Origin: an uncultured Kordiimonas sp.
Lineage (GTDB): Bacteria; Pseudomonadota; Alphaproteobacteria; Sphingomonadales; Kordiimonadaceae
Direction: 5' to 3'
Length of the DNA: 64,000 nt
NCBI GenBank assembly: GCA_947500295.1
Contig: CANMRM010000001.1
Span: 1,054,001 to 1,118,000, forward strand
A model generated the notes under the pieces. That model had not been told where the DNA came from, searched no databases, and worked only from the letters and a program-made list of their open reading frames with translations. Shown piece by piece: positions 30,289 through 34,461 of this stretch. The position numbers and the translations under genes were made by a program. The first letter of the stretch is position 1, and each line of letters starts with the position of its first letter.

Positions 30289-30399
30289 CGCGGAACTCCT
30301 TTACGCGTACCATATAGCGCTTGATGGCGCAGGCAATAGGGTCTATCGAACTTTGTGAGTTTTCATCGCGGTGGCCGCGTTATCAACAAAGAGTCGATC

Positions 30400-31266
30400 A
30401 TGGTAAGTTCCGAGAAAAACCGTTTCATCCTGACCGTTCGCTGCTGCGATGCGATGGGAATCGTTGCCGCAGTATCCGGCTATTTGACCGGAAAAAACTA
30501 TTTTATCGACGAGTCCGCGCATTTTGGCGATCCGATGACCGGCAATTTTTTCATGCGCACGGTTTTTACCCCACAAGGCGATGTGCCAAGCCGTGAAAGC
30601 TTCTCTCAAGAATTTGCCCCGATCGCCCAAAAATTTGACATGAATTGGCGCTTTTGTGACCCGCGTATCAAGCGGCGGGTGCTGATCATGGTATCAAAGT
30701 TTGATCATTGCCTGAACGACCTCCTCTATCGTTACAGCATCGGCGCGCTTAATATGGAAGTCCCGGCAATTGTCTCCAATCATATGGACCTGTCGGGCCT
30801 GGCTGATCGGCACGGCATTCCCTTCTTCCACATTCCCGTCAGCAAAGACAATAAACCTGAGGCGGAAAAACGCCTGTTGGATATCGTCGAGGACACACAG
30901 GCGGGCACTGTGGTGCTGGCGCGGTACATGCAGGTCTTGTCGGATGATTTATGCCGGGGCCTGCAGGGTCGCGTGATCAATATCCATCATTCCTTTTTGC
31001 CAAGTTTCAAAGGCGCGAAGCCCTATCATCAGGCACACGCCCGCGGCGTAAAGCTGATTGGTGCGACCGCGCACTATGTCACGCCCGAGCTGGATGAGGG
31101 CCCCATCATCGAGCAGATAGTTGAGCGGGTGGACCACACAAAAACACCCGATGAACTTGTCGCTATTGGCCGCGACGCGGAAGCCATCGCCTTGTCACGG
31201 GCGCTTTCGTATCATCTGGAAGACAGGGTGTTCCTGAACGAAGGCAAAACAGTGGTGCTTAAATAG
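30400..31266 (+). CDS. purU: Formyltetrahydrofolate deformylase
   Basis: 288 aa from the ATG at 30400 (MVSSEKNRFILTV); an earlier in-frame start adds 15 unconserved residues. An N-terminal ACT domain (FILTVRCCDAMGIVAAVSGYL split at residue 20) is joined to a formyltransferase-fold domain with INIHHSFLPSFKGAKPYHQA and the Asp in ELDEGPIIEQ. It hydrolyses 10-formyl-THF to formate and THF, balancing one-carbon and glycine metabolism, which fits the nearby glycine-producing kbl-tdh. Confidence 0.96.
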   Translation: MVSSEKNRFILTVRCCDAMGIVAAVSGYLTGKNYFIDESAHFGDPMTGNFFMRTVFTPQGDVPSRESFSQEFAPIAQKFDMNWRFCDPRIKRRVLIMVSKFDHCLNDLLYRYSIGALNMEVPAIVSNHMDLSGLADRHGIPFFHIPVSKDNKPEAEKRLLDIVEDTQAGTVVLARYMQVLSDDLCRGLQGRVINIHHSFLPSFKGAKPYHQAHARGVKLIGATAHYVTPELDEGPIIEQIVERVDHTKTPDELVAIGRDAEAIALSRALSYHLEDRVFLNEGKTVVLK

Positions 31267-31272
31267 GGAGCG

Positions 31273-31965
31273 CTAGCTCGCCCAGCCGCCGCTGAAAGGA
31301 ATGGCCTGGCCGACGAAAAAGTCACTTTCATCCGACGCCAGAAAAACGGCGAGCGCTGTATCTTCTTCTGGTTTTGCAAGCCTGCCCAGGGGCACTTCCC
31401 TCTTGAGATTTGCCTGAAATTTCGGATTGGCCTGCATTTCAGGTGGATAATATGCTGGGTTCTCCACCCAGTTCTGTGCAATGAGGTTGCACTGGATATT
31501 GTCTCGGGCGAGTTCGACCCCTGCGGATTTTACATATGAAATCTGGGCGCCGCGCGCTGCTGTGTAGGCCGCAAGCCTGCTCATCGGGCGCAAGGGCACG
31601 GCGCTCCCATACACCACAATCTTGCCCCGGCCACGGGCTTTCATTTGCGGGACAACAGCGCGCACCAGCCGGTGAAGTGGATAAACCATAACTTCGAAAG
31701 CAGTTTGAAAATCAGTGTCGTCGAGGGCATCCAGGGTTTTGCCGTACAGGTTATCGGATGCGAGATTTGCGACCAGGATGTCGATATCGCCGGCTGCATC
31801 CACAATCTTTTGAGGCTGACCAGGGTCGGCCAGAATGGAATCGTCGGTCACGACTTCCGCCCCCTCTCGCATAAAATGCGCAACAGTGGCCGGTCCCATA
31901 TAGTCTTTTGCCTGGGTGATCAGGGCTCGTTTTCCCTTTAGCCGTCCGCCGCTGTCGTCAGTCAT
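31273..31965 (-). CDS. Probable halohydrin dehalogenase (SDR-related, S-Y-R triad)
   Basis: 230 aa from the ATG at 31965, which has AAGGAGAGG just upstream. The fold is that of short-chain dehydrogenases, but the NAD(P) glycine motif is replaced by ITQAKDYMG, fitting T-x4-F/Y-x-G (T17, Y22, G24), and the catalytic set is Ser121, Tyr134 and Arg138, fitting S-x12-Y-x3-R, where SDRs have Lys. Both are the published signatures of halohydrin dehalogenases, which eliminate halide from vicinal haloalcohols to give epoxides and open epoxides with cyanide, azide or nitrite. The region NWVENPAYYPPEMQANPKF matches the NYL-FYPTEPWKTNP part of HheC as I remember it. It lies 57 bases behind the RTX gene on the same strand. 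Confidence 0.82.
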   Translation of the reverse strand: MTDDSGGRLKGKRALITQAKDYMGPATVAHFMREGAEVVTDDSILADPGQPQKIVDAAGDIDILVANLASDNLYGKTLDALDDTDFQTAFEVMVYPLHRLVRAVVPQMKARGRGKIVVYGSAVPLRPMSRLAAYTAARGAQISYVKSAGVELARDNIQCNLIAQNWVENPAYYPPEMQANPKFQANLKREVPLGRLAKPEEDTALAVFLASDESDFFVGQAIPFSGGWAS

Positions 31966-32022
31966 CTGCCTCTCCTTCGACACTCAAAGGGTGAGCCTGG
32001 GTTTTCAGACAGGCACGGGTGC

Positions 32023-34461
32023 TCAGACAAAAACGAATGTGACCGATGCTATGTCGTCGACCGACAGGCCAATCAGGAAAATGGAGTTGCCATCGCCGGT
32101 GTCAATTAACAAGCCGCTGTTTCCAGCCACGGAAGAGTTGCTCGAAGCGGCGGTTACATCAGCCACGCTGGCAAAATCTGTGATCGTTCCAGCAATGTTC
32201 AATATGTCCTGACTGACACTGAAGTCATTAATCACGTCATCGCCGTGGTCATTGGCGAAGAAAAAACTGTCAGCGCCGCTGCCGCCGGTCAGGCTGTCGT
32301 TGCCTTCGCCGCTGCGGATCAGATCTGCGTCTTGACCTGCGTCCACCAGATCGTTGCCAGCACCGTCAAAAATCTCGTCTGCACCGTTTTCGCCGCGGAT
32401 GGTGTCGTTGCCGCCGCCGCCAAACAGAGTGTCGTTTCCGGCGCCGCCTGAAACACTGTCCGCGCCGCCTGAAGCGAACACGATATCATTGCCGTCGCCG
32501 CCGTTAAAAACGTCATTCAACACTGTAGACGATTGATCGTTTCTACCGCCGTATATGGTGTCGTTTCCGGCACCTGCTTCGACAGTATCGTCCCCGGTGC
32601 CGCCACCAAGAATGTCGTTGCCGGCTGCGCCGAATAGTTGGTCGTTGCCAGTCCCTGCATAGGCCGTGTGATTGCCGCCGCCGTCGGTAACGGCTTCTCC
32701 TGCATCCAGCCGCTGGTTGCCGTTTGCGTCATTAAAGCTTCCGGTAATCAGAATGTCATTGCCTGCGCCGCCAAACAGGGTGTCGCTTGCTCCGGCAGTA
32801 ACGGCAGATGCGGTCACACCAATGGCGGTCTCTGTGCCAATGTAGCTGCCACCGATCACGGTATCGTTGCCGCCGCCACCGCCAAGCACATCAGCGCCAT
32901 TGTCACCTGCGATGAGATCATCACCGGTGTCGTCTCCGCCAGCAAACAGGATATCGTTTCCGTCACCACCGCTTACGGTGTCGCTGCCCGCGCCGCCGGT
33001 AACGGTGTCGTTTCCGCTGCCGCCCAGCAGCTCGTCATTGCCACCTTCTCCGAGGACCCGGTCTGAACCCGCTGCACCTTCTAGCTTGTCCGAGCCGTCG
33101 CCCCCTTCAATCCGGTTGTTGGCTGCATTGCCGACGATTGTGTCATTGCCACCGGCTGCTTCAATGTTTTCGATGACCGTTTCGGGGGTCAGGAAGACGG
33201 TATCATCCCTGGATCCGACAGCTATTCCCCCACTTCGATAAGTGACAGTGGTGCCCACATCAATGAAAGCCCCGCCAAATGCGTCATCACCCGTCAGGTT
33301 AATCCTAACGCTTTCACTGCCGCCGGTTATTCGAATGGTGTCTGTGCCGCCGGTATCGAATATGGTCTCAAAATATTGATCGTTGACGTTAAAAGTATAG
33401 ACGTCATCGGCATCCGCACCCTCAGGAGCCCCGTATATTTGCCGGAGCGCCAACAGGTCAAGATAGCCAAATGTTGTCGGATAAAAGCTGACGCTTGTGG
33501 CACTGGGGAAAAAGGCTGACGAGAAGCTCGGTGTCAGGAGCGTAAACTCCGCTCCTGCAAATTCGGCCGGGAAGTCAGGCGCCTCGTCAAGGTCTGCGTG
33601 TTCCAGGCCCAGGGCATGCCCCAGTTCGTGCAAAACCACGAAGCGCAGCAACCCGTCATTAAAGATGCGGCTCTCAAAGATCGCCACGTCACCACCGGCC
33701 GGAGACTCGCTCGGCAGTCCGGCTAACCCAATGGTATTGCCTGAGTCGAACGAGCTCTGGATGCCAAATATGCGTAGAATGCCGGATGCTTCTCCGTCAT
33801 CTGCAACCTCCTGGAAGCGAATGTTGACATCCTCTTCAATCTGCTGAAGGCCGTCGCGGAAAAAGGCTTCGGACGTTGACGAAATCGGAATGGCAAATGG
33901 TGTTACGTCCTCGTCGTCCAGGTTCAGTGCTGCACGAAATGTTGCGTCAGCGCCCGGAATACTGAAAGTGACGGTCGGTGTGTCGACACCGTTGCCGTAG
34001 CCGCGCCCAAATATCAGCGTATCAACGGCGACGTTGCCAGTGTTGCCAACCGAATGCAGAACAAGCGGATCCGGCCGATCGCTCAGTGCTTCTTCTTCCA
34101 CAAAAAGGGTATAGCTGCCGGTATCTGTCAGGTTCACATTGTTAAAGGAGCTTGCACCAATAAAATATGTTCCGGACACCGTGGGTGTGAACAGAATACG
34201 GCTATTGGTCGAGACACCATCATCATCGTCCGCGTTCGCTATTCTGACTCCACTGGCGTTAAAAACACCCGTGAGGAAGGGGTCGACAAGCGTGCCGGAT
34301 GCCGTGCGGCTGCCTTCGAGGTCAATCTGGTAGGTTACCCCTGCGACCAGATTGACGGCAAAAAAATCAACGTCACCTTCTTCCTCGATCGTGCCACTGA
34401 CGCTGCCACCGACCGAAACCGCTAGATTGGTCAGAATACTGCCCGTTGGTTCGTCGTCCAT
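32023..34461 (-). CDS. RTX-type secreted metalloprotease-like protein with PPC domain
   Basis: 812 aa, very acidic, no signal peptide. Residues 5-125 form a PPC-like domain (VSGTIEEEGDVDFFAVNLVAG). A metzincin-like domain follows with HELGHALGLEH at 278-288 (three zinc His). Where serralysins have the Met-turn the sequence is FTLLTPSF (306-313), without Met, and GYLDLLALRQIYG follows. From about 410 to 750 there are at least a dozen GGxGxD calcium-binding nonapeptides, and the C-terminus (SVTFVFV) fits a type I secretion signal. Apart from the initiator there is no Met and no Cys. No type I exporter gene is near. The start has CAGGAGT upstream. Confidence 0.88.
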   Translation of the reverse strand: MDDEPTGSILTNLAVSVGGSVSGTIEEEGDVDFFAVNLVAGVTYQIDLEGSRTASGTLVDPFLTGVFNASGVRIANADDDDGVSTNSRILFTPTVSGTYFIGASSFNNVNLTDTGSYTLFVEEEALSDRPDPLVLHSVGNTGNVAVDTLIFGRGYGNGVDTPTVTFSIPGADATFRAALNLDDEDVTPFAIPISSTSEAFFRDGLQQIEEDVNIRFQEVADDGEASGILRIFGIQSSFDSGNTIGLAGLPSESPAGGDVAIFESRIFNDGLLRFVVLHELGHALGLEHADLDEAPDFPAEFAGAEFTLLTPSFSSAFFPSATSVSFYPTTFGYLDLLALRQIYGAPEGADADDVYTFNVNDQYFETIFDTGGTDTIRITGGSESVRINLTGDDAFGGAFIDVGTTVTYRSGGIAVGSRDDTVFLTPETVIENIEAAGGNDTIVGNAANNRIEGGDGSDKLEGAAGSDRVLGEGGNDELLGGSGNDTVTGGAGSDTVSGGDGNDILFAGGDDTGDDLIAGDNGADVLGGGGGNDTVIGGSYIGTETAIGVTASAVTAGASDTLFGGAGNDILITGSFNDANGNQRLDAGEAVTDGGGNHTAYAGTGNDQLFGAAGNDILGGGTGDDTVEAGAGNDTIYGGRNDQSSTVLNDVFNGGDGNDIVFASGGADSVSGGAGNDTLFGGGGNDTIRGENGADEIFDGAGNDLVDAGQDADLIRSGEGNDSLTGGSGADSFFFANDHGDDVINDFSVSQDILNIAGTITDFASVADVTAASSNSSVAGNSGLLIDTGDGNSIFLIGLSVDDIASVTFVFV

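Follow-up and report, generated by a model that had tools for sequence, protein, structure and literature searches.

A probable cofactor-free halohydrin dehalogenase gene in an uncultured Kordiimonas genome

The 64,000-nucleotide stretch analyzed here (the window; positions 1,054,001 to 1,118,000 of contig CANMRM010000001.1, assembly GCA_947500295.1) comes from an uncultured Kordiimonas sp. and contains a minus-strand gene that very probably (about 0.92, judged from its sequence and a predicted structure) encodes a cofactor-free halohydrin dehalogenase (HHDH) of the B/D branch. HHDHs serve in making chiral epoxides and beta-substituted alcohols. The identification is based on the presence of both HHDH signature motifs, the loss of the NAD(P)-binding loop and catalytic lysine of short-chain dehydrogenases/reductases (SDRs), and a close resemblance to HheB, HheD2, and HheD8 in both sequence and predicted fold. 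Because Pfam and NCBIfam file the gene as an SDR, the gene and its relatives are readily overlooked; the protein, concealed by generic annotation, is a well-supported addition to a known enzyme family.

Signature motifs and identity of the encoded protein

The open frame runs from an ATG at 31963-31965 to a TAG at 31273-31275, and this start is supported by an upstream Shine-Dalgarno-like AAGGAGAGG; an alternative GTG start six codons upstream would give a protein of 236 residues. On the plus strand of the same interval, stops interrupt the one frame that was translated. The first-pass annotation, which named no strand, had proposed that T17-x4-Y22-x-G24 replaces the SDR cofactor loop and that S121, Y134, and R138 replace the Ser-Tyr-Lys set. 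With the ATG at 31965 these residue numbers are exact, and both replacements were read in the protein, i.e., T17-Q-A-K-D-Y22-M-G24 with the loop TGxxx[AG]xG absent, and S121 followed by Y134-T-A-A-R138 with no YxxxK.

To gauge the strength of the motif pair, we used shuffled sequences and other genes. Both motifs at comparable spacing occurred in 1 of 20,000 composition shuffles of the protein and in 0 of 1,163 other gene calls from the window and 80 related loci, among which motif 1 alone was found in 108 and motif 2 alone in 36; a chance origin of the pair was rejected on these counts. One SDR cluster among the gene calls, with 31 members, displayed the Ser-Tyr-Lys pattern in 30 and Ser-Tyr-Arg in none. 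The protein had 18 other matches in its own genome, and the nine that were read for motifs all carried a Ser-Tyr-Lys-like pattern and never motif 2. Motif 1 was absent from three of these SDRs read at full length and also from L002, L004, and L007, whose N termini had been clipped by the called starts and which were read from stop to stop; the remaining three, likewise clipped by the called start, are uninformative on motif 1.

In the species-level collection, at least 593 stretches matched the search patterns and at least 550 encode a relative at a tblastn E value of 0.001; the best 80 of these, all from named records, were analyzed. Motif 2 was present in 80 of 80 and both motifs in 79; the earlier statement that known HHDHs are few does not fit this number of related sequences. 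The exception, L105, has Ser for the Thr of motif 1 plus an ambiguous residue within the motif. When our own start calls were used, motif 1 was seen in 74 of 80, the other six being four starts called too late, one motif beyond the searched span, and L105. Two natural variants at the motif 1 Thr position are described in a part of PMC11976700. An alignment of 55 sequences showed no variation at S121, Y134, and R138 and almost none at T17 and G24.

The HHDH assignment put forward in the first-pass annotation was supported by the PDB ranking, the trees, and the predicted fold, all of which place the protein with HheB, HheD2, and HheD8. HHDHs form homotetramers; the monomer, as modeled, has the HHDH fold, with HHDHs as its best-matching structures. 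HheG (PDB 5o30) matched with an E value of 3.9e-19 in the PDB sequence ranking and a TM-score of about 0.8 to the predicted fold; HheA, HheC, and HheG are interspersed with SDRs in the fold list or come after them, and the missing gap between HHDHs and SDRs there says nothing.

We weighed two other identities for the protein. The only models named by Pfam and NCBIfam are those of SDRs, and the overall fold is the same as that of SDRs, as would be the case for an SDR oxidoreductase that had drifted at both motifs and still used NAD(P). In NCBIfam the matches displayed are to SDR models and score well under the cut-off, and in Pfam there are two, both to adh_short models, in agreement with the earlier claim of a gene masked by generic annotation, but both Pfam matches begin only at residue 52-53. 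With no TGxxxGxG loop, Arg in place of Lys, HHDHs as the best-matching structures, and both motifs kept across the relatives, a drifted SDR is hardly credible. Grouping with NAD(P)-binding SDRs had been named beforehand as a refuting result; in the tree the HHDH rows were instead split from three SDRs of the same genome with support of 100/98, and an NAD(P)-type SDR was rejected from the PDB ranking, the late Pfam match, the motifs, and the tree. That the protein is an HHDH-family pseudoenzyme without catalytic activity is very unlikely, given the conservation of the triad, T17, and G24 in the alignment, the intact frame, and the orthologues within the genus, which are 77-84% identical and keep both motifs.

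For HHDHs in general, passages of PMC4989007 describe a mechanism in which Ser positions the hydroxyl, Tyr acts as the base, and Arg lowers the Tyr pKa, while the anion occupies the place where SDRs hold the nicotinamide. By analogy with this published family mechanism, Ser121 would hold the substrate hydroxyl, and Tyr134, acidified by Arg138, would take its proton; the alkoxide would then displace the adjacent halide to yield an epoxide, with the halide exiting into a pocket partly lined by motif 1. In the reverse direction, the same pocket would supply halide, azide, cyanide, or nitrite for epoxide opening. According to the part of PMC11976700 concerned, motif 1 residues affect nucleophile binding, and the central motif 1 Tyr of HheB makes no direct chloride contact. 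Our guess is that the natural substrate may be a small halohydrin or epoxide derived from marine organohalogens.

Phylogenetic placement and distribution

A 100-row tree was built from the window protein, the 80 named-record relatives, 10 further relatives chosen by hand from 20, six HHDHs from the PDB, and the three full-length SDRs among the nine from the same genome; several of its long branches were flagged by the program. The trees include only two D-type sequences and have no HheE, HheF, or HheG rows. In the 100-row tree, the window protein lies in a branch with HheB and HheD2, apart from HheA2, HheC, and 6a41. The Kordiimonas rows form one clade (100/99), which is nested with HHDHs from Rhizobiaceae, Phyllobacteriaceae, and Rhodospirillaceae records (99/97).

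Three trees did not settle the assignment to subtype B or D. In the tree with SDRs, the HheD2/HheD8 clade falls outside, and the alphaproteobacterial clade including the window protein joins HheB and gammaproteobacterial rows (96/94). In a 64-row tree without outgroup, from which 10 distant and 26 near-duplicate or long rows were left out, a weak branch (93/67) puts the same clade on the side of HheD. When the Kordiimonas rows were forced into a joint clade, the approximately unbiased test rejected neither HheD (p-AU of 0.18) nor HheB (p-AU of 0.09) as partner; this test is crude, with only eight Kordiimonas rows held with D or B and the other alphaproteobacterial neighbors omitted. The window gene represents a clade of alphaproteobacterial HHDHs distinct from the B- and D-type enzymes compared.

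The six closest relatives among the named-record matches are labeled as uncultured Kordiimonas (two), Kordiimonadaceae (one), or with broader names (three, one of them "Sphingomonadales"). The best 80 come mostly from metagenome-assembled Pseudomonadota, with two Actinomycetota and one Myxococcota. Within the genus, 8 of 19 genomes carry the gene, as do 14 of 385 genomes drawn from the class at an E value of 1e-40, the genome of the window being counted in both. HHDHs were already known from marine bacteria: a section of PMC6922532 reports HheD12 in Pseudomonas pelagia, with marine relatives carrying similar genes. An open-licence PubMed Central search found no paper joining Kordiimonas and halohydrin dehalogenase.

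Gene neighborhood and possible native role

Table 1. Coordinates of the HHDH gene, its motifs, and neighboring genes in the window, and of GST-like genes in related loci (L, locus)
Feature	Position	Strand	Remark
Probable HHDH gene	31273..31965	-	230 aa; open frame plus AAGGAGAGG, relatives HheB/HheD2/HheD8, trees
Ribosome-binding-site-like (Shine-Dalgarno-like) AAGGAGAGG	31969..31977	-	Read in the sequence
Motif 1, T17-x4-Y22-x-G24	31894..31917	-	Predicted nucleophile/halide pocket replacing the SDR glycine loop
Motif 2, S121-x12-Y134-x3-R138, predicted catalytic triad	31552..31605	-	Read in the translation
Serralysin-like RTX protein	32023..34461	-	Upstream on the same strand, 57 bp before the HHDH start
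Formyltetrahydrofolate deformylase PurU	30355..31266	+	Convergent neighbor; context, not part of the enzyme
GST-like genes directly beside HHDH	L052:9282-10687, L082:9087-10672, L087:4220-5665		
GST-like genes directly beside HHDH	L097:44-1912, L099:9315-10678, L064:9120-10678		

No pathway or role-revealing gene was seen beside the HHDH gene in the window (Table 1). Downstream lie PurU, a UbiX-type prenyltransferase, a racemase matching the DgcA model, Tdh, and Kbl. The RTX protein was identified from models that are below their curated cut-offs except for the Pfam calcium-binding and PPC models. Its gene precedes the HHDH gene in each of the genus's eight carriers, i.e., the window, L031-L036, and G017, and in L031-L036 the distance from it to the HHDH match is 41-90 bp; UbiX is near in seven of the eight and far away in G017. 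All 19 genus genomes have RTX-protein matches, and in the stretches read around an RTX homologue in four of those without the HHDH gene (L168-L171), tblastn at an E value of 1e-8 found no HHDH match or remnant. No functional link between RTX and HHDH is evident. A scan for promoters and terminators was uninformative, with 3 and 6 sites versus shuffle means of 3.1 and 5.1.

To survey the neighborhoods of relatives, we clustered 1,244 gene calls from the 80 loci and the window by similarity and identified the recurrent neighbor families only. Glutathione S-transferase (GST)-like genes, detected with a GST profile of our own, lie within 3 kb of HHDH in 30 of the 80 loci, a density of 30 in 450 kb near HHDH versus 10 in the 580 kb lying more than 5 kb away; the profile was built from clusters noticed near HHDH genes and favors near ones. 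As an independent yardstick, ten genomes contained 249 GST_N_2 matches in 39.6 Mb, about 6 per Mb. Nineteen of the 30 loci belong to a single gammaproteobacterial block and cannot be counted as independent, and the other 11 fall into seven sequence clusters, which is not proof of as many origins. Operon-like contact between GST and HHDH was observed in L052 (4-bp overlap), L082 (1-bp overlap), L087 (12 bp), L097 (57 bp), and L099 (101 bp), and Pfam detected GST domains in L052, L097, L099, L070, L082, and L064, and weakly in L087. No paper on GST neighbors of HHDH genes was seen among those listed by open-licence PubMed Central searches. The same GST profile found no GST in the window; the genome has 26 GST_N_2 matches. 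Since the window gene has no such neighbor, the pattern bears on the branch and not on this gene.

Two further families were observed beside HHDH genes. An EHN-type epoxide hydrolase cluster is present in 13 of 80 loci, five of them within 1.5 kb (Pfam was run on L078, L083, and L086); in L083, L085, L086, L091, and L109, from two gammaproteobacterial groups, the gene is 130-979 bp downstream of HHDH. A passage of the 2016 review (PMC4989007) counts two HHDH genes that share an operon with an epoxide hydrolase. HpaB-type genes of the 4-hydroxyphenylacetate 3-hydroxylase family (clusters C28 and C105; Pfam on L070 and L055) lie downstream of HHDH in eight of 80 loci, L045, L050, L051, L054, L055, L064, L069, and L070, with the L069 gene called in two pieces.

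The native role of HHDHs is left open in the relevant part of the same review, which does not exclude other physiological functions. This leaves room for a true HHDH that acts natively on a natural epoxide, opening its ring with an anion such as chloride, nitrite, or cyanide, while dehalogenation is a side reaction. We give this possibility a little less than even odds; it is compatible with the HHDH identification, as it concerns the role and not the enzyme type. It is favored by the lack of a recognizable dehalogenation gene among the scanned neighbors, by the genome having no EHN epoxide hydrolase at an E value of 0.001 (other epoxide-hydrolase types were not searched), and by the frequent neighbors in relatives, which besides the GST-like genes are a glyoxalase-family gene (28/80) and malate synthase (18/80). 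On the other hand, the neighbors in other lineages, of which only recurrent families were identified, do not reveal the role of this enzyme, and chloride and bromide are plentiful in sea water, making both directions plausible. A broader and unlikely proposal is that the B/D branch evolved not for pollutants but for a natural epoxide/halohydrin interconversion whose product is disposed of by a GST or, in some lineages, an epoxide hydrolase, the Kordiimonas gene being a stand-alone version that uses GSTs encoded elsewhere. The recurrent GST-like neighbors make one answer on the native role of HHDHs testable, and this pattern is the part worth following, as a lead on the role of the family and not as evidence on the window gene.

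Comparison with known halohydrin dehalogenases

Among characterized enzymes, HheB from Corynebacterium sp. N-1074 (PDB 4zd6; mutant 5b12) and HheD2 from a gammaproteobacterium (PDB 7b73) are each 52% identical to the window protein. HheB is not joined to it directly in the trees (p-AU of 0.09 for the forced clade), and its source strain was enriched on haloalcohols or epihalohydrins according to a passage of PMC4989007, which is not known of the host of the window gene. HheD2 belongs to another well-supported clade, although a joint clade with the Kordiimonas rows was not rejected (p-AU of 0.18), and HheD8 (PDB 8xxb, a triple mutant with chloride) clusters with HheD2 and not with the window protein. 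HheA2 and HheC (PDB 1zmo and 5kwe) share the two-motif pattern and, in the review's account (part of PMC4989007), the chemistry, but they are only 36% and 31% identical to the window protein and stand on a distant branch. At the central position of motif 1, the window protein has Tyr (Y22), as is natural in HheB and HheG according to a portion of PMC11976700.
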